64,000 bases of DNA. Source: Victivallales bacterium (GTDB taxonomy: Bacteria > Verrucomicrobiota > Lentisphaeria > Victivallales > UBA1829). Under the pieces are notes generated by a model. It saw only the letters and a list, made by a program, of their open reading frames with translations, searched no databases and had not been told where the DNA came from. This document shows positions 4,726-27,976 of this stretch, one piece after another. The stretch is from assembly GCA_016285345.1 (NCBI GenBank), contig JAEEQN010000001.1:123865-187864 (forward strand). Direction: 5' to 3'. The stretch's first letter is position 1; every line of letters begins with the position of its first letter. The position numbers were made by a program, and so were the translations under genes.

Positions 4726-5118
4726 GAAAACTATACCGAAGGTATAATAAACAATTCCTTTTCCAATAACGCTGGCATGAAGATATGACCTTCTGCGGAA
4801 AGATTGAGATAGATTAAGTGAACAATGAGGGTTGCAATGTTCCTGTCGTTTCCAACGCAAAAGCCCGCTTGAGCGAAATGCGAAAGCGTACTGTATTTCT
4901 GCTCTGCTCCGCCTAATCCAATTAGTGCATAATAGAACTGTGCCGAAATGCTTTTGGAATAGCTGTCGGAGTGTTGCGAAAATCATATTCAGAATTCTTT
5001 TCGTTGCTCTCTCAGGAAATTTTGGAGGCAAAAAGCGGATTAAAAAAGGGGTATTGAATATAAAATATAGCTTGGAAATGGAATAATGCAAATGAAAAAC
5101 ACAAAATTGAGAAAAAAA

Positions 5119-5234
5119 GTAGAAGATGTAGCTGAAGATCGTCAGCATGAAGTGGCGGAGTGTCTTCGGCGCGGCATAATACCCCACCAGCGCCAAAGGC
5201 AAAAAAAGATGAACAAGTAGGATGAGAAGACCAT
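5119..5234 (-). pseudogene. algI 5'-end remnant
   Basis: From the ATG complement at 5234 the minus strand closely matches the first ~115 bp of algI (2169 leftwards), including the same spacing to the upstream SGNH stop codon. The match ends near GTAGAA (5119) and the frame is shifted after about 12 codons, so it cannot encode AlgI. This is what remains of a second algI after tandem duplication of an SGNH-algI unit. Confidence 0.85.
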
Positions 5235-5237
5235 AGG

Positions 5238-8045
5238 TTATTGCCAGATTTGAATATCTTTAATTGCAAAGGGGGTACCAGGCCTCCCTTTAATTTTTAT
5301 AGTAATTTCTTTTGTATCTGCTGGAAGTTCAAATAATAGGTTATAGAATTTTGCCGTCATTCTGCATCGAAAAACGGGTCGAGAAACGCCATTGACCTCA
5401 ATTGTCAAAACCCCGTTTTCAACAGTACAGCAAGGGATAAGGCAAAGAATCGGTTTGGTTTTGTTAGTTGAAGTGGTCTCATCATTTTTAATTGTTATAA
5501 TGTGTCTCTCGTTGTTTTCGAGTTCAAATAGCGTTTTTGTTTTTAGATTATCCCAAAAATCACCATTAAAATGGGAGAGATCAGAAATATTGGATTGAAG
5601 GGAAAAACTGCCAACCATCTTTTTATGATTTAGCAGTAATCTTTCCTGGTCAGCCCGCTGTATATTAAACATTGCTGAAGCTCTGTTAATAGACTTTATA
5701 TGACCTGTTCCAACATGAAGAATTAGAGCTTTTTTGTTTTTTAGAAAAAACTCGGGACGAGACAGTATTTGGTTCAAACCATCTGTAAATGGACCTAAGC
5801 CTCCTATGAGATAAACATCATTTGAAATATTCATTTTTTTAGAAAGAAGCATTGGAATGGCACAACAATCTTGTGTAGGTCGTTGCATATATGAGTTACC
5901 GAATACAATAATACTACCATTCGGATTCCTTTTTAGTGGTTTGCCGTTATATTCAAACATTGTATAAGGATAGATTGTTCCATCTAAGTTCATCCCATTA
6001 TCACAGTTCGAGGGAAAAACATACCCGTAATGATTAGGAACCATTTTTTTCGAAAATAATTCAGGATTAAGATCAGGAATGATATTATGCCTTTCTAATC
6101 TTTCGACCAAAATATCTGACAAACAATCTTGCGTCAGATCGGAAGGGTGACCGTTCGAAGGATAAAAAAATGCAAACGGATATCTGTTATAGTTTTTAAT
6201 AATTTGATCTGATGCATAGATGGTTTCCACGTCTATCTCAGAAAGCTGCTTCACATATGTTGCCGTTTGAAGATCTGGAACATTAGAAAAATCTTTGTTG
6301 ATTACTCTTGAAGAAAGTGTATAAAGATCTGGAACCAGGGATACTATAAGTTGTACTCCATTTGATTCTAAGGCATGCTTAAGACTTGTAAAACAGTCCA
6401 ATGTTTCTGAGGAAAGAATGTCTGGTTCCTTAAGAAAAGTATAGTTTTCCGGCAAAGCCCAAAAAGAATTATTTATGTTACGCCAAACGTATTTATTTCC
6501 ATCAATTTCAATGCGGTTGTACCCCAAAGGATCTTTAGCTTTTTCTCTGTTCCATGCTTCTGAAAAGGCATTATTCATTTGTTGAATATACGTTTTGTCA
6601 CACTTTCTTAAAATGCTATTCATATAGGCCAAATCATGTTGAATAGCATTGTTTTGTGAACTAATTATGCTCTGTGAAAGCGGTGGATTGATCTTTTTTT
6701 CAAATATTGAGGTATATAATTCCCCATCAGAAAAGAATATTCCCGAAGATGGAATTGCTGCATTCTCTCTAAACTTTGCAATTTTATGGATGTTCAACAC
6801 ATAATACCGTTCTAATAGATATAAATCCAATTCATCGGATTGCTGAGTTGACTGTTCGCTTACAGGAAGGCTTTCATATGGAATTAATGAGCATTCAACT
6901 TTATCGCCAGGTTTTATTGATTCCGTTTTAATTATTTCATAGTTTTTAAATCCCTCAACAACCAAGACGACTTCTTTGGGAAGTGGTTTGCCGGAGAAAA
7001 TCGCATTTCCATCAAAATGAATCGTGTATCGGCAATTGGGATAGTCGGACGTCTTGGGATCAGGCAAAGAAGAACGTTCAATGATTTGTCCCTCAAGACA
7101 AGTTGAATTCTTTATCTCTTTCTGATAGATTCTCAGCATGTGAATCGTAACATCACCTGTTATTTCGAGAAACAGTCGAACTGTATCAAAGTGCTCAAAA
7201 GCACTTATTTCATAGTTGAAGCATTCCTTATTGAAAATACCAGACATTTCTCCTATGTATACCTTGCCAGAACGAAACAGGCCAAGCTCTTCTATCCCGA
7301 ATTTAACTTTTGTCTCGGTGGTCTTTCCGGTCAGTTCAACAGAGATTCCTGTCGTTGTGTTTAAAATCTGCTTTGGAGATGTATTTATGGTCAGTGTTCC
7401 ATCGGGAGAGTGAATTTCGAAGCCTTTATCCGTTTCGCCAAAGTCGCAATTGCCCCGGAGTGTATTATAATCAATTTCCCACGACTTCGGAATCTTTCTT
7501 GTTAAAAAATCACTTCTCTTTTTGATAACACCGTTCTTTCGGAATATTTCATCGAAACTCGCCGCGATGGAAATAGACGCGTATGTATCCATTTTGTCTT
7601 CATGGACGAGTTCCATCCCCCTTTTTGAAAAATCCATTCTCTTTGCATTGTTTTCAGCAAAAACCATCGCCTCCTCATTCAGTTTCTCCGTCTCTTCTGC
7701 CGTAACAACGGGAATGGCAGCAGGAGCAAGCTTTCCTTCGATGGGCAGCGTCTTGGCGACAGGCTTTGTCTCGGCGGATTTCGTCTCGGCTATCGGCTTT
7801 GTTTCGGCAGACTTCGCATCTGTCTTTGGTTTGGTCTCAGTCACAGGCTGAGTGTCGACTGCGGACTTTGTTTCAGTCACTGTCTTTGGTTCGGGGACAG
7901 AGACTGTTGGTCTCCTGTTGGATGTGAGGCTCTCGCCTTGAACCGTCTGAACATCATCATGTCGACTGAACTCCTTGCGGTCAATGATGACGAAGAAAGC
8001 AATCAACGCAACAATGATTGCAATAGGCACGATTAGTTGTCTCAT
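5238..8045 (-). CDS. Membrane-anchored SGNH/AlgX-like protein, paralogue 1
   Basis: 935 residues. An N-terminal signal anchor (about residues 2-22) is followed by a ~70-residue T/E/K/S/A-rich linker with repeated TETK and AETKP motifs, the module AAIPVVTAEETEKLNEEA, a region shared with paralogue 2, and a C-terminal SGNH-like domain. The serine block VFGNSYMQRP is present, but the usual Asp-x-His dyad reads SNGHPS, with Asn in place of Asp. Start ATG 8045 has an AAGGA ribosome site about 9 nt upstream. The first ~89 codons and the upstream DNA are nearly identical to those of the sulfatase-like gene at 15998-18406. A role in modifying exported polysaccharide is inferred from neighbours; catalysis is doubtful. 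Confidence 0.8.
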   Translation of the reverse strand: MRQLIVPIAIIVALIAFFVIIDRKEFSRHDDVQTVQGESLTSNRRPTVSVPEPKTVTETKSAVDTQPVTETKPKTDAKSAETKPIAETKSAETKPVAKTLPIEGKLAPAAIPVVTAEETEKLNEEAMVFAENNAKRMDFSKRGMELVHEDKMDTYASISIAASFDEIFRKNGVIKKRSDFLTRKIPKSWEIDYNTLRGNCDFGETDKGFEIHSPDGTLTINTSPKQILNTTTGISVELTGKTTETKVKFGIEELGLFRSGKVYIGEMSGIFNKECFNYEISAFEHFDTVRLFLEITGDVTIHMLRIYQKEIKNSTCLEGQIIERSSLPDPKTSDYPNCRYTIHFDGNAIFSGKPLPKEVVLVVEGFKNYEIIKTESIKPGDKVECSLIPYESLPVSEQSTQQSDELDLYLLERYYVLNIHKIAKFRENAAIPSSGIFFSDGELYTSIFEKKINPPLSQSIISSQNNAIQHDLAYMNSILRKCDKTYIQQMNNAFSEAWNREKAKDPLGYNRIEIDGNKYVWRNINNSFWALPENYTFLKEPDILSSETLDCFTSLKHALESNGVQLIVSLVPDLYTLSSRVINKDFSNVPDLQTATYVKQLSEIDVETIYASDQIIKNYNRYPFAFFYPSNGHPSDLTQDCLSDILVERLERHNIIPDLNPELFSKKMVPNHYGYVFPSNCDNGMNLDGTIYPYTMFEYNGKPLKRNPNGSIIVFGNSYMQRPTQDCCAIPMLLSKKMNISNDVYLIGGLGPFTDGLNQILSRPEFFLKNKKALILHVGTGHIKSINRASAMFNIQRADQERLLLNHKKMVGSFSLQSNISDLSHFNGDFWDNLKTKTLFELENNERHIITIKNDETTSTNKTKPILCLIPCCTVENGVLTIEVNGVSRPVFRCRMTAKFYNLLFELPADTKEITIKIKGRPGTPFAIKDIQIWQ

Positions 8046-9014
8046 TTGTCAATGATCCTTGGATATTTTAAGGAAACCTCTATCAATATCGTTTTTGAGA
8101 GATTGTTCGGTTGTTGACGGATAAGAACCGTCGGATGCGATTCTTTGTTCCCCATAAAAAGCATTTGTACACTGCTGTCTGGGAAAAAAAGGTTATGATT
8201 GAAAACGTCGGCTCCTGCGCTATATTATAGAACACTAACAGTCTCAATGAAAACATAGGAGACTCGACAGCATATTACTATAGCATCTTCCAGCAACTTG
8301 TCAAGTTTGTTCCGCGATATCGTTTGGAAAAAAGCGTGGAAAAGCATTCCGGCGACCGTTACTGCACGCATTTTACCGCCATCCGCCAGCTCAAAACGGT
8401 TTTCTGCGCCCAGCTCGCCGGAAAGGATTCTCTCCGTGAGGTCGAGTCAGGCTTGCTCATGAATGCCGAACGCATGTACCATCTCGATATGGAAGCGGTT
8501 TCGAAGTCAACATGTCGGACGCGATAAACCGGCGTTCGCCGGAAATCTTCCGGGCGATGTTCGAGGAAATCCTGAATCGTGCGCTTGCCTGTGCTCCCGG
8601 GCATAATTTCAAGTTCAAAAACCCGCTCCATGTCATCGACAGCACAACCATAGCTCTGAGCCTGACGGTCTACAGCTGGGCCCATTACCGGAAGCAGAAA
8701 GGTGCAATCAAGCTTCATACGGAGCTGGACTTGTCCGGCAATCTGCCCTGTTATGTGCTGATGACCAACGGAAGGATGTCCGAACGGCGAAGAAAAATGT
8801 CTCAATCAAACCGGACAGCATCGTCCAGCTCTGCCAAAGAAAGGCGCGATCTTGGACGAACTCATCGAATATACCGGCGCAGCCTCGGTCAAAAAAACGG
8901 GCAAACTCAGGCTCATCGAATTCATGGACGATGAGGGAAAAACGTATCAGTTCCTGACCAACAACTTCAAGCTTGCAGCATCATCCATCTCGGAAATCTT
9001 CAAACAGCGCTGGC
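7779..9014. repeat. Segmental duplication, copy A
   Basis: About 1.24 kb covering the first 89 codons of the SGNH paralogue 1 gene, its upstream region and most of an IS4-type element. It matches 18139-19374 with few differences. The IS and the gene 5' end were therefore copied together as one block. Confidence 0.9.
8046..8169 (-). promoter_or_regulatory. Shared upstream region between IS4 end and SGNH gene
   Basis: Nearly identical to 18413-18528 upstream of the sulfatase-like gene. It includes the small hairpin GACGG-TTCTTAT-CCGTC. Just beyond it, inside the IS left part, TATAAT occurs on the minus strand (about 8224-8229), with TTTTCA 18 nt upstream, so transcription of both genes may be IS-driven. 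Weak evidence. Confidence 0.35.
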
Positions 9015-9338
9015 AGATAGAACTCTTCTTCAAATGGATCAAGCAGAACCTCAAAATCAAAAGCGTCCTCGGCATCTCAAAGAACGCCGTCATGACGCAG
9101 ATCCGAGTGGCGCTCATCCTCTATCTGTTGCTTTCCTACATCAAATTCGTCAGCAAATGCCGGTACGGCATCACAGAACCGGTAAACCGGCTCCGCGATA
9201 CGCTCATGTCAGACTTCGCTTTGGGCGAAGTCCTCAATTTGAACAGAGATACCCTGAAGAAACCTCCAGACTGGAATGCACCTGAACAACTTGATCTCTT
9301 TGCAAACTGTTGCTGCTCATTTTAATCGGACAGCAGTG
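8170..9338 (+). mobile_element. IS4-type insertion sequence, degenerate (copy A)
   Basis: The element is bounded by imperfect inverted ends, CACTGCTGTCTGG at the left and CGGACAGCAGTG at the right, about 1.17 kb apart. It contains a frameshifted DUF4372/DDE transposase. No target-site duplication is visible next to these ends. Copy B at 18529 is truncated, and shorter relics of the same left end lie near 23045 and 30310. Confidence 0.75.
8247..9325 (+). pseudogene. IS4-family transposase (DUF4372 + DDE), frameshifted
   Basis: Three overlapping frames rebuild one transposase. The N-terminus contains SIFQQLVKFVPRYRLEKSVE (DUF4372-like). The middle is IDSTTIALSLTVYSWAHYRK (first catalytic Asp region). 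The C-terminus is QRWQIELFFKWIKQNLKI (catalytic Glu region). One frameshift is at about 8520, where KST is followed out of frame by MSDAINRR. Another lies after MTNGRM near 8785. A possible ATG at 8247 is out of frame with the DUF4372 part. The gene cannot make a full protein without several corrections. Confidence 0.85.
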
Positions 9339-9453
9339 GAGGAGAAAACAAAAAAACGACGGAAACTGTCGGGTTATACGATTCGAAAGGTGGAGTATAC
9401 AATTAAAAAAAAGAATGCCGCTAATGTCCACAAGGGAATTAGTAGACAAACAG

Positions 9454-9793: not shown

Positions 9794-11635
9794 TTAATGC
9801 GTTTGTTTTGTGAAATCGCGGAAATATTCTTCGAAGAGGGAAATGAAACGTTTCATTTCCTCGACTTTGATATCTCCAATATTGGCGATTCGGAACGTGG
9901 GAAGATCCGAGACCTTGCCTGGATAGATGGTAAAGTGATGTTTCAGGAAGAAATCGTGCATCGTATCGAAATCAAACTGATCCCAATCTGGGTTAAGGAA
10001 TGTTGTCACAAGATGAGCTTGTTCTTCTTCGGGAACGGGCATTCTCAGACCGATTCTTTTCGATGCCGCTACAAGCAGACTCCACACCTCGGAATACCGC
10101 TTGTAACGGGCAGGGATTGTTTCGATTTTTGTTTCAGTAATTGCCTGCCGCAGCGCATAGAAGGTTTGGACAGGTGGTGTGAAACGAAGCTGTCCTGTCT
10201 TCTGAAAATACTGATACTGATCATAGATGTTGAGATAGTAGCATCTCATCGGCTTGTTTTTCAGTTCCAGCAATTTGTCTTTTTTGCAGATGACAAAAGC
10301 AAGTCCGGCCATCCCCTGGATGTTTTTATTGGAAGTGGATGACATGAAATCAATATTGAAATCATCAAGTCCGAAGGGGATCCCCGCGTATGCGCTGACC
10401 GCATCGACGATGGTGGTGATGCCATATTTTCTGCAGAGATTTCCGATTTCCTTCGCAGGATTCATGACGCCGGTCGTCGTTTCGTGAAATACATAGGCGA
10501 GATGCGTGTAATGCCCCTTCTTCAGTGCATCTTCAAGCGCATCCAGGCTGACCTGGCGGCATGGATCGGCTTTCAGTACATCGAAGTCAAGGTGGTAGAC
10601 GGAAGCCATTTTCGCCATGCGCGCGCCGTAAGCGCCGTTGTCAACGATCAGGAGATGATCCTCGTCTCCGACACAGGAGGAGATCATTGCCTCATCGGCA
10701 GCCGTCCCGGAACCGCCGAAAAGGACGGTTTCATATTTAGCTGGATCCGCGACCAGAGCCGTCAATTCACGCTGGGTATATGCAAGCAGCTCGCTGAATT
10801 CTTTTTCCCGATGGCAGATGTCGGGAACGACCTGAGCATATTTGACTGAATCAGTCGTAGTCGCGGGCCCCGGATTCAACAGGACTTCTCGAGGAACACT
10901 GAGAAGACTTTCCGATTCATGGATTCTCGGCAGGATAACGCTTTTCGCCATGTTCAAATGGCTGACATCATCGATTTCCCGCCAGGCGTAATGTTCGATT
11001 TTCAGCAGAGAGACCGGATTATCCTTTGCAACGGCCTGCATGGCGGATTCGTATTCCATTTTGGGAATGTCCGTATGATGTTCCGCCGCATAGCCGCACA
11101 TGGCTTTTAAAAGCCGGACGGATATTTTGGAAATACCGACGAGCTCTCCGGCAGCTGTGGATTTTCTTTCTTTATCTTTCCCGAGAGCTAACAGATTGCC
11201 GTCGGCATCAGGCTGGACATAGACTTCATCCCCGGATGCAGTTTCACCCGAAAGCAGAAGAACATTTGCCTCCGGATGATGCACGAGGATTCGAAGCCCG
11301 GAAAGATCATAGATCAGATCGGACTCCAGCAACAGGAAATCCTGTGTCACCTTCTTCGCAGCGACCTCAAGCGTTCCCATGCTGCCCGTATTGGCGTATT
11401 CCGTATTCTGAATCGTTTCAACACCGTGATATTTCTTAGACAAGTCATCATAAAACTCATGATGATACCCGGTTCCGATTACGATGTGTTCAATCCCTAC
11501 GGAAATCAGTTTCCGAATGGACCATTCAACGATCGGAAGCGATTCAAGAATGATGAATCCTTTTGGAATCTCCCCCTGAGATCCTTTCAATCTGGTTCCC
11601 ATTCCTCCGGCGAGAATAACCGCTTCTCTAATCAT
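9794..11635 (-). CDS. pntC-phnW: Bifunctional AEP cytidylyltransferase / AEP-pyruvate transaminase
   Basis: About 613 residues from ATG 11635, chosen over the TTG at 11653 because AAGGG lies 8 nt upstream and the gene then starts 4 nt after the decarboxylase stop. Residues 1-240 are a nucleotidyltransferase (ILAGGMGTRL, then a conserved PKG lysine) of the PntC/LicC type, expected to make CMP-2-aminoethylphosphonate from CTP. Residues ~255-613 are a PLP transaminase of the PhnW/AEPT family, with LLNPGPATTT, REKEF and the PLP lysine in STSNKNIQGMAG. In a biosynthetic setting it aminates phosphonoacetaldehyde to AEP. The fusion joins the last two soluble steps of phosphonate activation. Confidence 0.9.
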   Translation of the reverse strand: MIREAVILAGGMGTRLKGSQGEIPKGFIILESLPIVEWSIRKLISVGIEHIVIGTGYHHEFYDDLSKKYHGVETIQNTEYANTGSMGTLEVAAKKVTQDFLLLESDLIYDLSGLRILVHHPEANVLLLSGETASGDEVYVQPDADGNLLALGKDKERKSTAAGELVGISKISVRLLKAMCGYAAEHHTDIPKMEYESAMQAVAKDNPVSLLKIEHYAWREIDDVSHLNMAKSVILPRIHESESLLSVPREVLLNPGPATTTDSVKYAQVVPDICHREKEFSELLAYTQRELTALVADPAKYETVLFGGSGTAADEAMISSCVGDEDHLLIVDNGAYGARMAKMASVYHLDFDVLKADPCRQVSLDALEDALKKGHYTHLAYVFHETTTGVMNPAKEIGNLCRKYGITTIVDAVSAYAGIPFGLDDFNIDFMSSTSNKNIQGMAGLAFVICKKDKLLELKNKPMRCYYLNIYDQYQYFQKTGQLRFTPPVQTFYALRQAITETKIETIPARYKRYSEVWSLLVAASKRIGLRMPVPEEEQAHLVTTFLNPDWDQFDFDTMHDFFLKHHFTIYPGKVSDLPTFRIANIGDIKVEEMKRFISLFEEYFRDFTKQTH

Positions 11636-11639
11636 ATTG

Positions 11640-12761
11640 TTACCCTTTCGCAAAGTTTTGAATATAATTCATCAACGCATCGCAGTTTTCCTGCGGTGTT
11701 GTGGCGGGACGTCCTAAATCTTTTCTTGCACCGGGACGAACCTTGACCTCAATGAAACGGAAACCACTACAATTTTCAGAAAGTATCCTGTGCAGTTCTT
11801 CGCGTGTGGAGACGGATTCAATCCTTTGGTATCCGGCGGCAGAAGCAAGTTTTACCAAATCTAAAGCGCCGATATCCGTTGGCTGTCCGCCAACCGAATC
11901 GTGAACGCCGTTGTTGATGACGATATGTGTAAAGTTGCCGGGTTTTCTGCTTCCCAGAATCGCGAGCGCCCCGAGGTGCATCAGAAATGCACCGTCCCCG
12001 TCAATGCATGTCACGGGCAGATCAGGATGCGCCAGGGCGATTCCCAATGCGATCATGGAGCTGTGTCCCATGGAGCCGACAGTCAGAAAATCGCATTCAT
12101 GCCCCTCTTTTCTGCGTTCGCGAATTTCAAACAGCTCACGTGAGGTGAATCCTGTTGTGGAGACAAAAATGCCAAGGAGTTTCGATATCTCCTCCAAAGC
12201 ATCTTCTCTGGTCATTTTCGTGTCCGACATTGTATGAAGCGATGGGATTTCCTCAAACAATCCTTTTCTGACGACCAACGCAACCGGTGTTTTCTGTTCC
12301 TTTGCGATTCGGATCGCCTCTTTCGTCTGGCGTAGGATTTCTTCCGGTTCCGATCCAAGGATGAAATATGGATACCGCATTGCATCCAGTAGCGCGGGAG
12401 TCACCATGCCCTGTTTTTTGTGCTGGGGCTCGTCATGAACTCCGGGTTCTCCGCGATACCCGATCAGGAGAACGATTGGCAAAGAATATACCTCCGGATC
12501 CGCAAGGGAAAGCAGCGGATTAACCGCGTTGCCAATCCCGGAGTTCTGCATATAGACCAATGGCAGATGCCCGGTCGCAAGATAATGCCCTGCGGCCAAA
12601 GCGACCGCCCCGCCCTCGTTCTGCGTGATGATGTTGTTACTTTCTGAAACATTCTGCCGGATGAATGTGCAGAAATGCTTCAGCAGGGAATCCGGGACGC
12701 CTGCAAAAAAATCGATGCCTTCATCGCACAGGCACTGGTAGAATAGTGACGGATGGATCAT
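11640..12761 (-). CDS. ppd: Phosphonopyruvate decarboxylase
   Basis: 373 residues, the usual size of Ppd/AepY. The N-terminal pyrimidine domain has GVPDSLLKHF and the TPP-activating Glu in TQNEGGAVALAAGHYL. The C-terminal PP domain has GDGAFLMHLG...NNGVHDSVGGQPT, which matches the GDG...NN thiamine-diphosphate/Mg site. It converts phosphonopyruvate to phosphonoacetaldehyde, the step that makes the unfavourable mutase reaction irreversible. It sits between PEP mutase (12 nt upstream) and the AEP-forming fusion (4 nt downstream), so order follows the pathway. Confidence 0.93.
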   Translation of the reverse strand: MIHPSLFYQCLCDEGIDFFAGVPDSLLKHFCTFIRQNVSESNNIITQNEGGAVALAAGHYLATGHLPLVYMQNSGIGNAVNPLLSLADPEVYSLPIVLLIGYRGEPGVHDEPQHKKQGMVTPALLDAMRYPYFILGSEPEEILRQTKEAIRIAKEQKTPVALVVRKGLFEEIPSLHTMSDTKMTREDALEEISKLLGIFVSTTGFTSRELFEIRERRKEGHECDFLTVGSMGHSSMIALGIALAHPDLPVTCIDGDGAFLMHLGALAILGSRKPGNFTHIVINNGVHDSVGGQPTDIGALDLVKLASAAGYQRIESVSTREELHRILSENCSGFRFIEVKVRPGARKDLGRPATTPQENCDALMNYIQNFAKG

Positions 12762-12773
12762 CGAAATAACCCT

Positions 12774-14084
12774 TTATCTTTGTTTCTCGTAAGGAATGAG
12801 GTTGAGAATTTCCTTGATGGGCATGCAGTCATCGTTTACTTCCAGCGACCTTTCATGCTCCAGAATCTTTCTTGCGACATTGTTCATCGCGGGATATGCC
12901 GCACGTAGCATGTGATTGGCATAAATGATTATATTGACGCCCCATGACACCAGTTCCTTTTCGTAGATGTGGTTGTAGGTGGTGGGGACGACAACAATCG
13001 GGACTGTTGGGAATAAGGCGCGGAATCTTTTGCAGAATTCATGGATATCCTCACCGGTTTTGTTTTTGCTGTGGATCATAATCCCGTCCGCCCCGGCTTC
13101 CACATAATTCTTCGCACGTTCAATTGCTTCTTCCATGGGGTGCTCTGCAATGAGGGCTTCAATGCGGGCGATGATCATGAAAGCATCTGTGACCTGCGCA
13201 TTTTTGCCGGCGTGGATTTTTGCGCAAAAATCGGGAATCGGTGCCAGTTGCTGTTTAACCGTAGCCCCGAACAGTGAATTCTGTTTCAGCCCGACCTTGT
13301 CTTCAATGATGATAGCTGAAATGCCGTTTCGTTCCAGTGTGCGGACCGTAAATGCAAAATGTTCCAGTTTGCCACCGGTATCACCGTCATATATGATCGG
13401 CTTCGTGGTCGTTTCAAGAATGTCGTTCAATTCCTGCAGGCGAGTCGTCAGGTCGACCGCTTCTATGTCGGGTTTCCCTTTGTTCGTCGAGCTTGTCAGG
13501 CTGGACGACCACATCCCGTCAAAGCAATGGACCCCGTCCTCTTTTACAACTTCGAGATTTTCGACAATCAATCCGCAAAGACCGGAGTGGACTTCCAGAA
13601 TTCTCACTGGCTGTTTAGCCTCAATTAATCTGCGGAGTTTTGTCAGGCGGAGATCAGGAGTCGTTCCGTATGCATTAAGAGCCTTTGCCAGCTTGGAGGA
13701 TTCAAAACCGTATGTATATGGGATTTCGATAACCTCACCACCTAATTCCTTCATGACCTCAAAAGCTTCTTTTCTCAGGTTGCTGCCTGGGCCGGTTTTC
13801 CAGTCATCCCCATGAATGAGATAATCCGGGCGGTATTTTTTCAAATTCGAGATGCAGCTCCAGTCCTCCTGCGGAACGACTTTAGTGACGCCACGCAGTT
13901 GCTCAACAACAGTTCTCCGCTGCTCGTAGTTCAAGAGCGGCAGTCTGCGATGCTTTGTCAATGATTCATCCGTAGAAAGACCGACCAGCACATCGCCATA
14001 TTCGGCAGCTTTCTTTATGATGTTGATAATACCCGGGTGAATAAAATCGCCCGCCAAGTCCAGATAGACCGTTTTGTTGCTCAT
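12774..14084 (-). CDS. pepM: Phosphoenolpyruvate mutase with N-terminal nucleotidyltransferase-like domain
   Basis: 436 residues. The C-terminal ~290 residues are PEP mutase: MWSSSLTSS followed by GKPDIE, and the catalytic loop EDKVGLKQNS. This enzyme makes the C-P bond, PEP to phosphonopyruvate. Residues 1-135 resemble a CTP_transf-like domain (GVSTDE-like GLSTDESL, IHGDDWK), but the catalytic HxGH motif reads HPGI and the expected ISST motif reads FESS, so this domain is probably inactive. The start overlaps the stop of the YidC-TagF gene by 4 nt (ATGA), which indicates translational coupling. Confidence 0.93.
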   Translation of the reverse strand: MSNKTVYLDLAGDFIHPGIINIIKKAAEYGDVLVGLSTDESLTKHRRLPLLNYEQRRTVVEQLRGVTKVVPQEDWSCISNLKKYRPDYLIHGDDWKTGPGSNLRKEAFEVMKELGGEVIEIPYTYGFESSKLAKALNAYGTTPDLRLTKLRRLIEAKQPVRILEVHSGLCGLIVENLEVVKEDGVHCFDGMWSSSLTSSTNKGKPDIEAVDLTTRLQELNDILETTTKPIIYDGDTGGKLEHFAFTVRTLERNGISAIIIEDKVGLKQNSLFGATVKQQLAPIPDFCAKIHAGKNAQVTDAFMIIARIEALIAEHPMEEAIERAKNYVEAGADGIMIHSKNKTGEDIHEFCKRFRALFPTVPIVVVPTTYNHIYEKELVSWGVNIIIYANHMLRAAYPAMNNVARKILEHERSLEVNDDCMPIKEILNLIPYEKQR

Positions 14085-15973
14085 GAGTTGGATTGTTTCC
14101 TTATGCTGTCTTTTTTGATGATTTGGCTGACAATATACTTCCCAGCAGCTTCTCCGCTGTGCCCTAAATTGAAAATCGTGTCGGAACGCACTTGGGAGAT
14201 TCTGTCATGGAATTCGTCTTTTTTGGAGAAAATATCCGAAACCGCATCCGCAATATGATCAATCTTATCCAGATCAATCTCTATGCCGATCTTTTTACGA
14301 AGCGAGATGTCAATCGGTTCCAGGCTGATTTTCTTGTAATTCTTGTTTGTGATCTTCATCGGGGTATTGATGAAGAGGGTCGGCTTTAACGTCGAGAAGG
14401 AGAATTCATACGCGATCCCGGACCAGTCGGTAATGACCAGGTCAGCCGTAAAAATCGTAACATTGGACGAGAAATCCGTTTCGATGATCAGCTCATCCTT
14501 GGAAATGTCCTTGTACCGTTCGATCATCGCGTTCATCTTGGCAACATAACGCTTTTTATACTCGGGGTGAGGGCGGACAATAATCAAATAACCTTTTCCA
14601 AGAAGACCGGAGAGGATTTGATCCAGGCAGGAATCCAGGATGTTGGCTTCCTGCCAGGACGGAGCAATCAGGATTCGTTTCTTCGGATTTTCATTTTGTT
14701 TATCCTTACTCTTTTCGTACTTGTCAACCAGATTGTCGAGAAGTCCATATCCGCAAGGAATCAGATTCTTCTTCCTGGTTCCGTAGACTTTTTCAGATTC
14801 CCGAAGCTCCTGAACCTGATTTGGGCCTACGCACAGGAAGGTGTCGAAATGATCGTAAGCGCCCTCACGGACTGTCAGATGGATGCTGCAGATAGCATGG
14901 TCAATGTAGACGTACTCGACATCTTTCCGTACGTAGCTTCTCTTGATGTAAAAGTTGTCAAGGTCAGGCGTTGTCATTACGACCATGTCGGCATCCATTT
15001 TCATCATCAAAGTGATCATCCGTTTTTGACCGATGTAATACGGCTTAATCTTACTTTGTGTTTTTGCAAGTTCGAAAATCTGGTCATTCGGGTCGTTCGT
15101 GATATAATGTATGGTCATCGTCGAATGACTCAGCAGATATTCGATCACCGCCTGATAATACTTGTAAAAGCCGCTTGCCTCCGAATAAAAAACAAGATGC
15201 TTGTTTGCGATTGAAAAAAATCGTTTATAATCTGCTTTCTCGCGTTTTTTCAGTTCCTTTGTCTGAACATTTGCTCCCATGTTCTTCAGGTGGTCAAGCT
15301 CTTTCCGTGTACTTGCCAAAAGATCATAATCGACGTATTTCTTCGGGGGGATCAAAATGTTGCAGAGCCATTGGAGAGGAATCGTCATGAGGTTGCTGCA
15401 AATCCAGTAAAGAATTACGCCTGCCGCAACGTAAATGCCAAGGAAGAAAGAAAGAAGGATCGAAATCCAGTTTGTGAATTCCTGAGATAATCTGCTCTGT
15501 TCTTTCTGAAGCGGATTGATCTTATTTTGTGCATAGCCGAGAATCCATGCGGAAAGACCTGCCAGAACTGGCCACAAATAGCTCCAACCGCCGTTTTTGG
15601 CTGGGATTATCCCCAAAGCTTCATTCTTTCCTGTGTCGGTGATCTGATGAATGACCGCAACCAGCCCCATCAGGATGACGACCTGAACAGCAAGAGGAAT
15701 CAAGCTCAGAAGAGGATGATAATGCTCTTTCTTGAAAATCTCCCGTTGTTTTTCCGCTATTGTATCTTCATCGCCAAAGTGCTGGATTTTGACCTTGTTA
15801 ACCAGAGGCATGATCTTAACCATGATGATGCAGTTCTTCTGACACCATAGTGTAAGCGGCAAAAGAAGAACCTTCGTAATTGCAGTGAATAGGATAATTG
15901 AAATCCAGTAGTTATTGCTTATGCAGTAACATACATCCATCAAATAGCCGAGAGCCATTTCTAAATAATGCAT
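14081..15973 (-). CDS. YidC/Oxa1-like membrane domain fused to TagF-like CDP-alcohol phosphotransferase
   Basis: 630 residues. Residues 1-~225 form a multi-helix membrane region of YidC/Oxa1 type (YWISIILFTAITKVLLLPL, an amphipathic Lys-rich loop, then helices around 95-115, 130-150 and 175-205). Residues ~245-620 are a GT-B glycerophosphotransferase domain (TagF/TarB family) with VYIDHAICSIHL, LIAPSWQEANILDS, VRPHPEY and TDWSGIAYEF. TagF enzymes move a phospho-alcohol from a CDP donor to a glycan. The downstream genes make CMP-AEP, so AEP transfer to a lipid-linked polysaccharide at the inner membrane is the most economical role (inferred). CDP-glycerol is the alternative donor, since a TagD homologue lies at 24.4 kb. 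Confidence 0.87.
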   Translation of the reverse strand: MHYLEMALGYLMDVCYCISNNYWISIILFTAITKVLLLPLTLWCQKNCIIMVKIMPLVNKVKIQHFGDEDTIAEKQREIFKKEHYHPLLSLIPLAVQVVILMGLVAVIHQITDTGKNEALGIIPAKNGGWSYLWPVLAGLSAWILGYAQNKINPLQKEQSRLSQEFTNWISILLSFFLGIYVAAGVILYWICSNLMTIPLQWLCNILIPPKKYVDYDLLASTRKELDHLKNMGANVQTKELKKREKADYKRFFSIANKHLVFYSEASGFYKYYQAVIEYLLSHSTMTIHYITNDPNDQIFELAKTQSKIKPYYIGQKRMITLMMKMDADMVVMTTPDLDNFYIKRSYVRKDVEYVYIDHAICSIHLTVREGAYDHFDTFLCVGPNQVQELRESEKVYGTRKKNLIPCGYGLLDNLVDKYEKSKDKQNENPKKRILIAPSWQEANILDSCLDQILSGLLGKGYLIIVRPHPEYKKRYVAKMNAMIERYKDISKDELIIETDFSSNVTIFTADLVITDWSGIAYEFSFSTLKPTLFINTPMKITNKNYKKISLEPIDISLRKKIGIEIDLDKIDHIADAVSDIFSKKDEFHDRISQVRSDTIFNLGHSGEAAGKYIVSQIIKKDSIRKQSNS

Positions 15974-15997: not shown

Positions 15998-18406
15998 TTA
16001 TTTGATTTCTTGAGAGATAATAGTAAAAGGAATGCGTCGAACAAACGATTCTGATTCTTTCCCGAGCTTTAATGTCTTGATATCATTAAAAATATATTCT
16101 TCAACACAATTGCTACGTACACCCTGTTCGTCTTCAAAAACCGGATAATCCTTGCAAGAAGTTAAGACATATATTTTCCTCTTTCTGTCATTGGGGATGT
16201 CAAAGGACGGAAAACCTTCAAAATCTTTGAAATCAGCAGTGTCACCACATGCCAATTTTAATATAGTTGGGAGAATGTCAATGCTTTGGACTTTTGAGTC
16301 AATGATCGAAACCTCTGTTTTGTTTTCTTGAAATGGCTTAACCATAAATGTCATGTCGTATGGGTTTGAAAACCCCTTATGTCCTCCGTGATCCGAACAC
16401 AACAAAATTGCAGTGTTATCATAAATACCAGCTTCTTTAAGAAGACGAATAAGCTCAGACAAAAGGTAGAAACAGCCTTTGACAGTTGGAATTGGACTGT
16501 CAAGTTCTTCAGTCCTATTGCTTTTTTCGTCGTAAATCCATGGCACGTGTGCTCCCCTAATATAATAATATGCTAGAATTGGAGAGTCCGCATTTGTTGA
16601 TATTCCAGATGACAACATTCTTCTTAAAAAATCATCATTTAAATATGGAAGGGCCTGTTTTCCCGAAGGGATGTCAGGAACAAGCTTCTGAACCACATTG
16701 TCGGAAAAATCGAATGAGTAGTAGAAATTTTTTTTGATTAAATAGGGCACAGAACTAAATAACGATATTTGCTTCAAGCAATCATGGAGACAATTATAAT
16801 CAATCTCATAGATGATATCTTTAGCTACAATATTTGAAAAGTATTCATGATAACAATCAGCTGATCCAATTGTAAAATCCGGTTGTTTTACATAAAATCT
16901 TGCTTCATACCCGGCATCATGAATTTGTTTGTAAAATGCGGTCGATGGCGTTGAATGCCACATTTTTTGAAAGCTCTCATAACAGCTATTTGCTGGAGGC
17001 GGAAACGATGTCCCGGTCAGCTCATGTGGCAACCCGAGATACGTCGCGCGATAATAGGAGCATGCATCTGCATACCATATAAAATCTTTTACTATTTCTT
17101 TCGTTTCGGGGGAGCTCCTAAAACATTCTTTAACATTTTCGCTGCCTAGCATATCCATAACAAACAGAATTATATTTTTCTCTTTTGAAAGTTGGAATTG
17201 TTGTGAGCTGTCAACATAATAGGAATCTTGACGAGTCCAAACGCTTGAACTTGCTGAAACGACCATAGATGCAGTAGCTAAAAGTTCTAGAAAAAGAACA
17301 ATCCCTGTAGCCATTGATATGACTTTTGAAAAATAGGATGGCACAAGCTTCCGTAAAACAACGGGAGACAAAACAATAGCAATCCATATAATCAAGTTTA
17401 TTGTTCCAAAAACGTGATGTTCGCTCCAAACCGGTTCGAGACCATCCATTGTTCCAAGGTGCTGATTCATAAACATCGCCTGTATATAAACACATAATCC
17501 AAGCCCCGCGATGATAGCGACAAGATAATCGCTGACGATTGGCGGTATCAACAGTAAAATGATACAGGCTCCGATAATGGATATTGTAAGCACACGAAGA
17601 TTCCAATTGACAAAATCCTGAAAGATGAACGGAAACTGCAGACTATTTCCGAAATAGACACTCCAGGGAACGAATACAAGAATGCCAAAAGCAAGCAGTG
17701 AAACAGAGAATAGAATGCATATACGTCTCGGCAAAGAAAAATAATCTTTAAGCTTGCTACTACATTTCTTTTTCCTTTTAAAGAAAATGACATCGATAAT
17801 TAGCAATAGCGGAAGCAGGGAAAGAACAAAATGAATTCGGTTAAGTCCGATTCTGTGAATGAATGATTGAAACGCATTGGCTATTGCTTTGTTCCGTTGG
17901 AATCCAATTGCTTCTTTGTTGGCTTTTATGGCTTCTTCTGGGGTGAGAACTGGAACTGCCATAGGAACAGATTTGTTTCCTGCAATAGTTTTGGTATCAG
18001 ATTTTATGTCTTTTGATAGCGTGGTTGTTTCTTTTTTCGGGAGGAGCTTTAAGGCATCCTCGTTTGCTCTAATTGCCTCTTCCGCAGTTGCGACAGGAAC
18101 TGCGGAAGGTTGGGCTTCTGATTTCGTCTCTGCCTCCGGTTTGGTCTCGGCTATCGGCTTTGTTTCGGCAGACTTCGCATCTGTCTTTTGTTTGGTCTCA
18201 GTCACAGACTGAGTGTCGACTGCTGACCTTGTTTCAGTCACTGTCTTTGGTTCGGGGACAGAGCCCGTTGGTTTCCTGTTGGATGCGAGGCTCTCGCCTT
18301 GAACCGTCTGAACATCATCATGTCGACTGAACTCCTTGCGGTCAATGATGGCGAAGAAGGCAATCAACGCAACAAGGATTGCAATCGGAACGATTAGTTG
18401 TTTCAT
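15998..18406 (-). CDS. Membrane-anchored sulfatase-fold (alkaline phosphatase superfamily) transferase
   Basis: 802 residues from ATG 18406 (GAGG about 10 nt upstream; the track start at 18412 is TTG). An N-terminal anchor and T/E/K-rich linker are almost identical to SGNH paralogue 1. Two copies of the short module follow (SAVPVATAEEAIRANEDA and MAVPVLTPEEAIKANKEA). Then come about five membrane helices (residues ~190-390) and a periplasmic sulfatase-like domain with IILFVMDMLG, ATYLGLPHELTG (probable nucleophile Thr) and CSDHGGHKG (metal ligands). This layout resembles LtaS and phosphoethanolamine transferases. A phospho-group transfer on the glycan is likely; the substrate is unknown. It is 24 nt upstream of the YidC-TagF gene. 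Confidence 0.8.
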   Translation of the reverse strand: MKQLIVPIAILVALIAFFAIIDRKEFSRHDDVQTVQGESLASNRKPTGSVPEPKTVTETRSAVDTQSVTETKQKTDAKSAETKPIAETKPEAETKSEAQPSAVPVATAEEAIRANEDALKLLPKKETTTLSKDIKSDTKTIAGNKSVPMAVPVLTPEEAIKANKEAIGFQRNKAIANAFQSFIHRIGLNRIHFVLSLLPLLLIIDVIFFKRKKKCSSKLKDYFSLPRRICILFSVSLLAFGILVFVPWSVYFGNSLQFPFIFQDFVNWNLRVLTISIIGACIILLLIPPIVSDYLVAIIAGLGLCVYIQAMFMNQHLGTMDGLEPVWSEHHVFGTINLIIWIAIVLSPVVLRKLVPSYFSKVISMATGIVLFLELLATASMVVSASSSVWTRQDSYYVDSSQQFQLSKEKNIILFVMDMLGSENVKECFRSSPETKEIVKDFIWYADACSYYRATYLGLPHELTGTSFPPPANSCYESFQKMWHSTPSTAFYKQIHDAGYEARFYVKQPDFTIGSADCYHEYFSNIVAKDIIYEIDYNCLHDCLKQISLFSSVPYLIKKNFYYSFDFSDNVVQKLVPDIPSGKQALPYLNDDFLRRMLSSGISTNADSPILAYYYIRGAHVPWIYDEKSNRTEELDSPIPTVKGCFYLLSELIRLLKEAGIYDNTAILLCSDHGGHKGFSNPYDMTFMVKPFQENKTEVSIIDSKVQSIDILPTILKLACGDTADFKDFEGFPSFDIPNDRKRKIYVLTSCKDYPVFEDEQGVRSNCVEEYIFNDIKTLKLGKESESFVRRIPFTIISQEIK

Positions 18407-19374
18407 TGTCAAAAATCCTCGGATATTTTTAGGAAATCTCTATCAATTCGTTTTTGAGAGAGCGTTCGGTTGTTGACGGATAAGAACCATCGGATGCGAT
18501 TCTTTGTTCCCCATAAAAAGCATTTGTACACTGCTGTCTGGAAAAAAAAGGTTATGATTGAAAACGTCGGCTCCTGCGCTATATTATAGAACACTAACAG
18601 TCTCAATGAAAACATAGGAGACTCGACAGCATATTACTATAGCATCTTCCAGCAACTTGTCAAGTTTGTTCCGCGATATCGTTTGGAAAAAAGCGTGGAA
18701 AAGCATTCCGGCGACCGTTACTGCACGCATTTTACCGCCATCCGCCAGCTCAAAACGGTTTTCTGCGCCCAGCTCGCCGGAAAGGATTCTCTCCGTGAGG
18801 TCGAGTCAGGCTTGCTCATGAATGCCGAACGCATGTACCATCTCGATATGGAAGCGGTTTCGAAGTCAACATGTCGGACGCGATAAACCGGCGTTCGCCG
18901 GAAATCTTCCGGGCGATGTTCGAGGAAATCCTGAATCGTGCGCTTGCCTGTGCTCCCGGGCATAATTTCAAGTTCAAAAACCCGCTCCATGTCATCGACA
19001 GCACAACCATAGCTCTGAGCCTGACGGTCTACAGCTGGGCCCATTACCGGAAGCAGAAAGGTGCAATCAAGCTTCATACGGAGCTGGACTTGTCCGGCAA
19101 TCTGCCCTGTTATGTGCTGATGACCAACGGAAGGATGTCCGAACGGCGAAGAAAAATGTCTCAATCAAACCGGACAGCATCGTCCAGCTCTGCCAAAGAA
19201 AGGCGCGATCTTGGACGAACTCATCGAATATACCGGCGCAGCCTCGGTCAAAAAAAACGGGCAAACTCAAGCTCATCGAATTCATGGACGATGAGGGAAA
19301 AACGTATCAGTTCCTGACCAACAACTTCAAGCTTGCAGCATCATCCATCTCGGAAATCTTCAAACAGCGCTGGC
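18139..19374. repeat. Segmental duplication, copy B
   Basis: The counterpart of 7779-9014. It covers the 5' end of the sulfatase-like gene, the upstream DNA and a truncated IS4 copy. Similarity stops abruptly after CAGCGCTGGC, where copy A continues into the rest of the transposase and copy B continues into unrelated minus-strand coding sequence. Confidence 0.9.
18529..19374 (+). mobile_element. IS4-type insertion sequence, truncated and frameshifted (copy B)
   Basis: It has the same left end (CACTGCTGTCTG) and the same disabling frameshifts as copy A, plus one extra A in an A-run near 19250. The last ~320 bp, including the C-terminal DDE region and the right inverted end, are gone. The shared frameshifts mean the element was already dead before the block was duplicated. 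Confidence 0.85.
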
Positions 19375-19517
19375 CAAGTGTTTTGTGTTTTCTCTCTCTG
19401 TAAATTCTTCCAAATCATATCCTTTAGCAATAATCTTATCTTTAAGTTCTTTAGACAATGCAACAGATTTATCGTTTTTGAAATGTTCAGAATACAGAGG
19501 ATGATATCCCCTCTTTA
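19375..19517 (-). pseudogene. Out-of-frame remainder of a module-bearing gene
   Basis: On the minus strand one frame reads GYHPLYSEHFKNDKSVALSK and continues without stops to the IS breakpoint. It lies directly after, but one frame away from, the C-terminal module of the 19518-20714 ORF. It looks like the continuation of a lost gene that also began with the AVPVATADEAEKLN module. No family recognised. Confidence 0.45.
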
Positions 19518-20714
19518 TTATTTCTTGCTCCTTTTTTCAAAAAATAAAAGAGCATCCGCATTCAGCTTCTCAGCCTCATCCGCGGTTGCGACGGGCACAG
19601 CGGCAGGCTTAGCCTTGGGCATCGTTTCGACGGGCTTCGACAAAGATAGATAAAAAGGCTTAAACAGGGTTTTATTTTGGTTAATCAAATAACCAACATC
19701 TATTTCCCTGACAGGGTATTCATTCGGGAGAGACCGTTCGAAAACTTTGTATTTCCCATAGCGTCCTGTTTCATTCTTGGTATCTGCATAAAAACTTCGA
19801 TTATCTTTAAATCTTTTGCGTGATAGAAAAACTTGGTTTGTTGGAAACAAAAGATATATTATTTTGTCTTTAGACTGCAAATCAGCACCAACAATCCAAA
19901 TAAGTTTGTTTCCCAACTGATATATATATGTCTCAAAAAACGGGCTGCAGGATTTTAGTGTGCCGTTACAAATGATAGAGTTTAAGGCTGGGATAGTTTT
20001 TAAATCCTCAAAAGATGATGGGATAAACTTCTCATGGAAATATACCGAAATATATTGTTTTTTGCTTTTTATGTAATTCCTAGTCTTCTTTAATATTGTA
20101 TTGGAATTATATAAACATTTTTTTAAGGTTCCGGCACTATTTTTTCCCCCTTTTTCTGAAAATACTAGATATGCATTGTTATTCCAAAAGTCATATTGAT
20201 AATAGATCGAATCTAAATCTTCATATGTTTGTGGGGGGTGACATAAAACTATTTGATTGTTTTTTTGGGGAGAATACAGAATTCGATCATATTCCTTTTC
20301 TTCAATTAAAATAGTTGCTTCTTTGTCGTGTGATAAAAAGAATGCTGTATCTTCCATTAAACAAAACAAATAGTTGTTTCGTGAACCAGAAAAAGAGAGG
20401 AAGAAATGAGAGATTAATACCAAAAAGATAAAAGAAACAATAATTCTTTTTATTTGTTTGATTTGTACTACTTTTAATGCGTAGGCAAGCGAGATAATAT
20501 AGAAGATTTGAATCGAGAAACAGTATCTTGAAGTAATAATCGGTGCTTTTATTCTCCATACAAAGAAGAACATAATAGACAAAACAAAAAGAAGACCAAC
20601 TCTCCATTTAAAACAAAGGATTAAAATACAAAAAAACAAAAAAAGGAAAAAATCTGGAACATAAAGAGAGCGTATTATTGATACAAAAACATCTATCATT
20701 GTAAAAAAGCCCAA
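19518..20714 (-). pseudogene. C-terminal half of a GT39/ArnT-like glycosyltransferase, with chimeric tail
   Basis: 398 codons, starting only with a TTG that overlaps the upstream ORF by 19 nt. The first ~110 residues are four membrane helices of the kind that follow the N-terminal half of GT39 enzymes. A soluble periplasmic region follows. The last ~40 residues (KPAAVPVATADEAEKLNADA) are the module found near the N-termini of the SGNH and sulfatase-like proteins, so the C-terminus is a recombination chimera. It is in the -1 frame relative to 20696-21487, and the two ORFs together would make one ~650-residue enzyme. I mark it as broken, though recoding is possible. Confidence 0.6.
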
Positions 20715-24390: not shown

Positions 24391-24819
24391 CTATCCCTCG
24401 TTTATCTTGTGAAGAACTTCAGATAAAAGTGTCGACGATACTCCTTCCGTATGAGGGAGGAAAACAACATCAACACCTACCTGTTTGAACTCTTCAATCA
24501 TTTTGTTATACATGTCGCTTCCCTTCCAGTCGGATCCGTGAAAAAGCGCATCAAAATGAAGCTTTTTCCATGCTTCCATCTTGTTCATAGAGGTCTGAGG
24601 TACAGCCTCATCAACGCACTTGAGGGCGGACACGATAGCAATTCTTTCCTTAAAAGGGATAATAGGACTCTTGTGTTTATAGTTCTTAACGACTTCATCC
24701 GTACTAACGCCGACTATCAAATAGTCACACTGCTCCTTGGCTTTTTGAAGAATATTCAAATGCCCGATATGAAACATATCGTATACTCCTGTGGTGTAAC
24801 CTATTTTGTACTTAGCCAT
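24391..24819 (-). CDS. tagD: Glycerol-3-phosphate cytidylyltransferase-like protein
   Basis: 142 residues, TagD/GCT size. The nucleotide-binding motif is GVYDMFHIGHLN (HxGH intact), and HTEGVSSTLL matches the C-terminal EGVSTT-type signature. The expected reaction is CTP + glycerol-3-phosphate to CDP-glycerol. Users of that donor in this locus could be the LicD proteins or the TagF-like fusion at 14081. It overlaps the flippase gene by 19 nt. Ethanolamine-phosphate or ribitol-phosphate type substrates cannot be excluded. Confidence 0.85.
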   Translation of the reverse strand: MAKYKIGYTTGVYDMFHIGHLNILQKAKEQCDYLIVGVSTDEVVKNYKHKSPIIPFKERIAIVSALKCVDEAVPQTSMNKMEAWKKLHFDALFHGSDWKGSDMYNKMIEEFKQVGVDVVFLPHTEGVSSTLLSEVLHKINEG

Positions 24820-26352: not shown

Positions 26353-27123
26353 TTACCTTATATCAAATATCTTGCTCATCTCAGAATCAATATATTCTTG
26401 AGGAGGGTATTTCATGTAATCGCCATAATATTGCTTCAAGTAGAAATCTGTTTGATCCGGTATTCTTACAGATAATCCTTCATACTCTGCGATTACACCC
26501 TGCCCGTAAACTTCTTTTCTGAAAATATTCTTTTTCCCATATTTGCCAGATGGATTCATGACAAATGAAGCCGTTGAATATAGGTATCTATTGCACAGCT
26601 TGTTAAATTCCTCAATAAAATACATTCTACTATACTTTCCAACACCTAACTTTCCAAAAGCGAATAAAAATTTACCTTTTAGCAACAGCTTCCAAAATGG
26701 CTGTCTCATAAGAGCATTGGATTTGGTATAGTAACGAGCCTCTTCGATCAGTTTAAGCTGTTCAGATTCATCATTTGGAAGCCCTATCAACCTAAAAACA
26801 TCCAAATGCAGCTTATTTGTACTATATCCTCTTAAACCAATTCTAGGAAATTGCCTTAAAGTTTTGTCGTCAATTTTATAATAATCAACATAATATTTTG
26901 GGGGAAGCTCATGAATCATGCACTCAACGAATCTGTCAATTTCGTTCTCGGGAACAATAATATCCGCATCATAATCCCAAGGAATCGGACCTTTATGTCT
27001 GACCGCACCCAATACGGTGCCTGCTTGACAATAATATGTTATGTTGTTTCTGTCACAGATGCTAACAGTTATTGCCATCAACTCTTTTTCTATTTCCTGC
27101 ATTTTTTGTATTGAATATTTCAT
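26353..27123 (-). CDS. LicD-family phosphotransferase (second)
   Basis: The track ORF extends to 27270, but the ATG at 27123 is 10 nt after the upstream licD stop, has GGGAG upstream, and begins the conserved domain (256 aa). Motifs are CQAGTVLGAVRHKGPIPWDYD followed by DIIVP, the LicD nucleotidyltransferase-fold metal site. LicD proteins move phosphocholine or other phospho-alcohols from CDP donors to glycans. A CDP-glycerol or CMP-phosphonate donor is plausible in this locus. Confidence 0.85.
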   Translation of the reverse strand: MKYSIQKMQEIEKELMAITVSICDRNNITYYCQAGTVLGAVRHKGPIPWDYDADIIVPENEIDRFVECMIHELPPKYYVDYYKIDDKTLRQFPRIGLRGYSTNKLHLDVFRLIGLPNDESEQLKLIEEARYYTKSNALMRQPFWKLLLKGKFLFAFGKLGVGKYSRMYFIEEFNKLCNRYLYSTASFVMNPSGKYGKKNIFRKEVYGQGVIAEYEGLSVRIPDQTDFYLKQYYGDYMKYPPQEYIDSEMSKIFDIR

Positions 27124-27133
27124 CGTTTTCTCC

Positions 27134-27976
27134 CTATAAAATATCAGATATAGACAGTTTCGTTTTTTCATCGGCAAATAAAGCCTCGGTACCATCACTA
27201 AACCTGACATATGCCGGATAGTGTGTTTTTCTTTTTTCCACTGGAGGAAGTTCCATATAGTTGTTTCCAAATATATTTTTCAAAACTGCTTCTGATTTAT
27301 CCGGTGCAATATATATCCTATTTTCAAATTTTATATCGCACCCATTTCCAAATGCTTCCTTCTCTATTGTTCTTCTCTTTATTGGGTACTGAGAACCAAA
27401 GTTGGAATAATATTTTCTATTATTCCCATTTGTCATTGTCATGATAAAATTCGCTATCTTAAATAAAGCTTTGTAGGTAAGGAATTTTACAATATATTTT
27501 TTTAGCCCAGAAAATGATTCTGGAGACCTTTTTCCGCTGATCATTACGGCTAGCTTCTTAATGATTTGTTTTCGGAGTTCAACAAATCGGCTGTATCCAT
27601 TGGTATCGTCAATTGGAAAAACATCTACAAATATTCCGCAATTCCTTTGCGCTCCCTGTTCTAAGAACACAGTCTGCGTGTTACTTATTTTTGCATAGAT
27701 TCTCCAGTACTCCGGTTCCGTCGTAATCCAATTCAGTTTATAACCATCTGGAAGCCGAGTCTTGCAAATATCTAGAAATCGATTGAAGTCTTCTCTTGGC
27801 ATCACAATATCAAGATCATCATCCCAGGGTATAAAACCGCCGTGCCGAATTGCTCCAAGAAGAGTACCGCTTATTAAATAGTAGTGAATGCGATTTTTTC
27901 TACATACCCTATCCACTACATCCATTATATCCAGAATTTCTTCATGAATTTTCTTTTGGTATAATGTTTTATCCAT
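27134..27976 (-). CDS. LicD-family phosphotransferase (first)
   Basis: 280 residues, typical of LicD. The core motif GTLLGAIRHGGFIPWDDDLD is intact and the C-terminal half has the usual aromatic-rich tail. It is paralogous to the next gene downstream but clearly diverged, so the two probably differ in acceptor or donor. It starts 21 nt after the polymerase gene and is read with it. Confidence 0.9.
   Translation of the reverse strand: MDKTLYQKKIHEEILDIMDVVDRVCRKNRIHYYLISGTLLGAIRHGGFIPWDDDLDIVMPREDFNRFLDICKTRLPDGYKLNWITTEPEYWRIYAKISNTQTVFLEQGAQRNCGIFVDVFPIDDTNGYSRFVELRKQIIKKLAVMISGKRSPESFSGLKKYIVKFLTYKALFKIANFIMTMTNGNNRKYYSNFGSQYPIKRRTIEKEAFGNGCDIKFENRIYIAPDKSEAVLKNIFGNNYMELPPVEKRKTHYPAYVRFSDGTEALFADEKTKLSISDIL

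Follow-up and report, generated by a model that had tools for sequence, protein, structure and literature searches.

A YidC-TagF fusion gene within a phosphonate operon

The window analyzed here, the whole stretch of 64,000 nucleotides from a gut bacterium of the order Victivallales, contains a minus-strand gene series coding in turn for a sulfatase-fold membrane protein, a fusion of a YidC/Oxa1-like domain to a TagF-type transferase domain, PEP mutase (PepM), phosphonopyruvate decarboxylase (Ppd) and a protein uniting PntC with a 2-aminoethylphosphonate (AEP) transaminase (Table 1). The fusion is encoded by one uninterrupted ORF of 630 codons (630 aa), which begins with ATG behind a GGAG ribosome-binding site and shares 4 nt with pepM in an ATGA overlap. 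An earlier, sequence-only reading had described this ORF, its two domains and the overlap, and had quoted the motifs SWQEANILDS, VRPHPEY and TDWSGIAYEF; its coordinates prove exact, the three motifs are present, and the profile searches it suggested recover both domains above their Pfam cut-offs, with 60KD_IMP (PF02096) covering about residues 22-205 (91.5 bits against a cut-off of 35, 7e-26) and Glyphos_transf (PF04464) about residues 255-534 (48.7 bits against 22.1, 7e-13).

Table 1. Coordinates of the features discussed (positions without a locus label refer to the window)
Feature	Position	Strand	Remarks
PntC (CTP:AEP cytidylyltransferase) fused to AEP transaminase	9794..11653	-	TIGR03301 over cut-off
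Phosphonopyruvate decarboxylase (Ppd)	11640..12761	-	TIGR03297 461 bits, cut-off 312.5
PEP mutase (PepM); Fom1-like cytidylyltransferase domain at the N-terminus	12774..14084	-	TIGR02320 413 bits, over cut-off
YidC/Oxa1-like domain (aa ~18-206) joined to predicted TagF-type GT-B phospho(no)transferase (aa ~255-535)	14081..15973	-	
Membrane protein with alkaline-phosphatase/sulfatase-fold domain (LtaS/YejM-like)	15998..18412	-	24 nt upstream of the fusion
Stand-alone TagD-like cytidylyltransferase	24391..24819	-	PF01467 4e-20; near the LicD genes
LicD-family gene	26353-27270	-	PF04991 2e-28
LicD-family gene	27134-27976	-	PF04991 1e-40
YidC-sulfatase fusion	L116:2888-5743	-	
YidC-sulfatase fusion	L117:3709-6513	-	
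YidC-sulfatase fusion	L118:4473-7295	+	
Further YidC-sulfatase fusions	L119-L145		

The N-terminal part of the fusion additionally matches E. coli YidC at 8.5e-9 in a phmmer search of PDB structures, and scores below the cut-off of NCBIfam TIGR03592 (yidC_oxa1_cterm; 76.6 versus 84.3 bits). Its residue K34 aligns with the groove arginine R366 of E. coli YidC, a conservative change. The AlphaFold2 model, computed with 64 family sequences as input, is confident (mean pLDDT 93, pTM 0.79), and Foldseek matches the fusion to TagF/TarL crystal structures (3l7l at 7.3e-12, TM-score 0.61 by target length). A separate YidC-domain protein of 608 aa is encoded elsewhere in the genome, in which no PF04464 protein besides the fusion was found.

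The adjoining PepM carries EDKVGLKQNS, which fits the motif EDKxxxxxNS, and its N-terminal domain matches the Fom1 structure 5x3d at 1.9e-39. The HxGH motif of this cytidylyltransferase domain is degenerate (HPGI, with the second histidine lost), consistent with PntC being the activating enzyme here. Residues 7-612 of the PntC-AEP transaminase, nearly its whole length, are related in phmmer searches (7.4e-220) to the protein of PDB 6pd1/6pd2, annotated as a nucleotidyltransferase/class V aminotransferase, which we take to be Treponema denticola PntC. The crystal structure and AEP specificity of the T. denticola enzyme have been reported (PMC6697681). With PepM, Ppd, AEP transaminase and PntC all present, the operon is predicted to encode every step toward CMP-AEP. 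It is flanked by two near-identical remnants of a DDE transposase (8089-9374 and 18448-19653), 94-99% repeats about 10.36 kb apart in a composite-transposon-like layout, and the flanking repeat runs into the start of the genes at 5238-8045 and 15998-18412.

The gene content of the wider window marks it as a locus for surface polysaccharide: it codes for a sugar transferase, glycosyltransferases, a protein with an O-antigen ligase/polymerase domain, sugar dehydrogenases, an MBOAT protein, two LicD proteins and a TagD-like enzyme, the last of which could supply a donor for the LicD proteins. Several otherwise unrelated surface genes (2173-5202, 5238-8045, 15998-18412 and 19518-20714) have a leader or segment in common (e.g. 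AAVPVVSADEAEKLNEEA), as if shuffled; the first of them adjoins the MBOAT gene and has a match to AlgX below threshold.

Distribution and conservation of the fusion family

A scan of our genome collection recovered 71 real fusion members (L015-L085) from Lentisphaerota, Clostridia, Erysipelotrichia and Saccharibacteria; the 72nd match, L086, was rejected, only part of its YidC half matching, at 21%. The fusion is a real and recurrent architecture, and its recurrence in 71 other loci rules out an assembly artefact, chance or a frameshift. It was also detected in three other genomes of the order to which the window bacterium belongs, where it lies beside a PntC- or LicC-like enzyme and PepM was not detected. 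A search of a literature made up largely of papers outside subscription yielded no report of it, and the architecture has apparently gone unreported so far. Five Saccharibacterial members (L049, L050, L052, L054 and L055) come from genomes of only 0.7-0.9 Mb, which have yet kept the fusion, often with its partners. The fusion copies of five genomes (G315, G530, G463, G584 and G201) contain one in-frame TAA or TAG stop.

Across an alignment of about 70 fusion sequences H359, R467-P468-H469-P470, D516-W517-S518 and E523 are invariant, and the position of the YidC groove arginine is occupied by lysine in 69 of 70. Conservation is alike in the YidC and catalytic halves, with a mean pairwise identity within the family of 0.52 and 0.55, respectively. 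More than one YidC-domain protein was found in the window genome and in 33 of the 34 other hosts searched, which rules out the fusion as the sole YidC of the cell and suggests that it is probably not needed as a general insertase, much as the sequence-only reading had supposed.

A second architecture joins a YidC domain, through further transmembrane helices, directly to a sulfatase-fold domain in proteins of about 935-951 aa; such relatives were found in 16 of 299 genomes of one family, with asparagine or glutamine at the groove arginine position. Thus, two transferase-type folds that are unrelated to each other are found joined to YidC-type domains. These data bear on the possibility that the YidC half is a mere passive anchor, or an insertase dedicated to some partner protein, while the TagF half works alone. 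TagF-type enzymes work at the membrane, to which the fusion must bind somehow, and the YidC insertase profile is missed; nevertheless the YidC domain, with its groove residue and loop motifs retained, has drifted less than one would expect of an anchor, and the recurrence of such domains beside an unrelated transferase-like fold also argues against this explanation, which we consider quite unlikely.

Association with PepM and alternative transferases

We counted the neighbor genes of 72 fusion loci by a six-frame profile search over a 10 kb range, which found 18 PepM loci where a greedy ORF caller, missing genes under longer shadow ORFs, had found 16. In these 18 loci PepM always lies within 5 kb and on the same strand as the fusion, and Ppd was found near the fusion in 16 loci. 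PepM is detectable at E <= 1e-50 in 34 of 68 fusion host genomes, about half thus showing none. Among 398 genomes of one family, PepM occurs in 17 of the 27 with the fusion versus 32 of the 371 without it (odds ratio 18, p 8e-11 by Fisher's test, shared ancestry ignored), and on the fusion tree, scored with a slightly lower count of PepM loci, local linkage to PepM changes at least 10 times. One neighbor cluster (cluster 18, TagD-like, 440 aa) was rejected as PepM for want of any PepM match.

No PepM lies within 10 kb in the remaining 54 of the 72 loci. The sequence-only reading, which took the fusion for the missing AEP transferase, had itself held that a fusion occurring mostly without phosphonate genes would speak against a dedicated AEP enzyme, and this is the distribution observed. 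Because of these 54 loci phosphonate is not a family-wide donor and, with about half of the host genomes showing no PepM, a family specific for AEP is ruled out. Even among the 18 PepM-linked loci an AEP transaminase is present in only two, whereas an Fe-alcohol dehydrogenase is present in 13; in the Clostridial operons, whose PepM proteins keep the HxGH of the Fom1-like domain, this dehydrogenase suggests 2-hydroxyethylphosphonate. Compact operons of gut Clostridia (L019, L021, L022, L025, L030 and L041) consist of the fusion, nucleotidyltransferase, cytidylyltransferase and PepM domains as a triple fusion or split, an Fe-alcohol dehydrogenase and Ppd, and they probably make CMP-2-hydroxyethylphosphonate. 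In some other loci, among them L053 and the Saccharibacterial L050, the fusion adjoins a protein that combines a LicC-like nucleotidyltransferase with a CobD-like PLP decarboxylase domain (L050:12091-13923 and L053:5849-7651), probably a maker of CDP-ethanolamine or CDP-aminopropanol, which suggests phosphoethanolamine or aminopropanol phosphate as the group transferred. With a nucleotidyltransferase or cytidylyltransferase partner near the fusion in 44 of 72 loci, the donors common to the family are better read as several small CMP- or CDP-activated phospho- or phosphono-alcohols, the donor of the window fusion probably being CMP-AEP.

The two LicD genes of the window, overlooked when the fusion was called the missing transferase, are putative rival phospho-alcohol transferases within its own locus; they begin just over 10 kb from the fusion (10-12 kb) and hence beyond the range of the neighbor count. 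LicD proteins might therefore attach AEP while the fusion takes another donor, for instance CDP-glycerol from the TagD-like enzyme at 24391, and LicD-like phosphotransferases have indeed been noted near PntC (PMC6697681). In the window, however, the LicD genes share a different stretch (24-28 kb) with the TagD-like gene, whereas the fusion overlaps pepM. Furthermore, LicD occurs within 10 kb in none of the 18 PepM-linked fusion loci but in 8 of 20 PepM clusters of genomes without the fusion (p 0.003 by Fisher's test, shared ancestry ignored), the pattern expected if fusion and LicD are alternative transferases, and in several four-gene phosphonate operons the fusion is the only recognizable CDP-alcohol-type transferase. 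We regard attachment of AEP by LicD as improbable. We ruled out that a classical CDP-alcohol phosphatidyltransferase encoded nearby makes a phosphonolipid, a motif scan having found no such enzyme in the PepM-linked fusion loci. In one genome without the fusion, a protein with a classical TagF-like end (DYSGIFFDF; L150:11213-12331) directly adjoins a PepM operon.

Proposed function

Based on the overlap with pepM and the complete CMP-AEP pathway of the operon, the invariant motifs, the TagF/TarL fold, the co-occurrence with PepM, the absence of LicD beside the fusion, the frequency of nucleotide-activating partners, the extra YidC proteins of the hosts and the conservation of the YidC half, we propose, giving it about an even chance, that the window fusion is a membrane-embedded phosphonotransferase that would move AEP from CMP-AEP to a lipid-linked surface polysaccharide, with the YidC part as its platform; the LicD genes of the window and the many loci without PepM count against it. 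By homology, PepM, Ppd and the transaminase would yield AEP, which PntC would activate to CMP-AEP. The TagF-type GT-B domain, which follows the last YidC helix and presumably faces the cytosol, would use this donor and release CMP, with the observed H359, RPHP loop and TDWS/E523 site as its presumed catalytic elements. A hydroxyl on the lipid-linked surface polysaccharide that the window locus builds would most likely serve as acceptor. The YidC-like domain would act not as a general insertase but as an integral membrane platform placing the lipid-linked acceptor at the active site. Other members of the family would use the same scaffold for different groups: probably 2-hydroxyethylphosphonate (HEP) in the majority of PepM-linked Clostridia, and phosphoethanolamine-like groups in loci with a LicC-CobD-like fusion as partner. 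The earlier idea is thus partly supported, being right in kind but too narrow in substrate: the data support a CMP-phosphonate transferase that is encoded together with all steps to CMP-AEP in a locus for surface polysaccharide and is probably not the general insertase, but they do not support specificity for AEP as a trait of the family.

The sulfatase-fold neighbor raises a further version of the mechanism. In the window protein Thr457 and the metal-ligand-type residues D420, H622, D674 and H675 are conserved, LtaS is its best PDB profile match, and its predicted fold, apart from a poorly predicted N-terminal leader, matches YejM/PbgA, sulfatases and LtaS; it shares about 17-23% identity with its Clostridial counterparts. 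Such a protein lies within 10 kb of 49 of the 72 fusions, mostly directly upstream and on the same strand. The fusion might transfer AEP from CMP-AEP onto a lipid, either diacylglycerol or polyprenyl phosphate; the charged head group would then pass the membrane by way of the YidC groove, and the LtaS/YejM-like neighbor would hand AEP to the glycan on the outside. The direct joining of YidC to a sulfatase-fold domain in the second architecture and the basic residue kept in the groove favor such a relay, as does the in vitro lipid scrambling reported for YidC and Oxa1 (PMC10491306). Yet about a third of the loci, among them the phosphonate operons L015, L020 and L021, have no sulfatase-fold neighbor within 10 kb, and the groove residue of the YidC-sulfatase family is not basic. 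Moreover, the known acceptors of TagF-type enzymes are glycans or polyol phosphates and not lipids. The relay, though possible, is not favored and we deem it unlikely; direct transfer by a membrane-embedded phosphonotransferase to a lipid-linked glycan remains our preferred reading.

Relationship to known systems and implications

The fusion has in common with the TagF/TarL-type CDP-polyol phosphotransferases (PF04464; PDB 3l7i, 8va1) the GT-B fold, the histidine, RPHP and D-x-S motifs and a surface-polymer context, but differs from them in its integral YidC-type domain, in Foldseek alignments of about 14-16% identity and in partners that would supply CMP-phosphonates or CDP-amino-alcohols in place of CDP-glycerol or CDP-ribitol. 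With the YidC/Oxa1 insertases (PF02096; PDB 3wo6, 3wvf) it shares the YidC core, by profile and PDB matches, and a basic groove residue; unlike them it has lysine in place of arginine, scores under the TIGR03592 cut-off and is joined to a transferase in hosts with a separate YidC. All four activities of the Pnt pathway (PepM-Ppd-AEPT-PntC, T. denticola Tde1415; PMC6697681) are represented in the window, which adds a candidate terminal transferase; the text of PMC6697681 names LicD-like and glycosyltransferase genes as neighbors, with neither TagF nor YidC. The PepM N-terminal domain is homologous to the cytidylyltransferase of fosfomycin Fom1 but has lost the HxGH that its Clostridial relatives retain, and the neighbor at 15998-18412 has the fold and conserved threonine of the LtaS/YejM-type proteins but is very divergent.

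The transfer of phosphonates from CMP-activated precursors to surfaces has been called enigmatic after the PepM step, PntC being the one activation step identified since (PMC6697681). The fusion is the best candidate in the present analysis for an enzyme placing phosphonates on bacterial surfaces, and its family thereby puts forward a concrete enzyme for this transfer as a candidate. Some of the hosts are cultured (e.g. Angelakisella massiliensis, L019), the compact operons lend themselves to heterologous expression, and AEP-type operons stand in natural contrast to HEP-type ones. The family also suggests the idea of a YidC-type domain serving glycan assembly and not protein insertion. As a broader and more doubtful conjecture, surface-glycan phosphotransferases may on more than one occasion have taken up YidC-like domains as working membrane modules, in one case by fusion to a cytosolic TagF-type enzyme for CMP-activated phosphonates or phospho-amino-alcohols and in another by fusion to an LtaS-like enzyme outside the cytoplasm, the insertase groove handling a lipid-linked substrate or passing a phosphono-lipid head group. 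If true, YidC folds would gain a role outside protein insertion.
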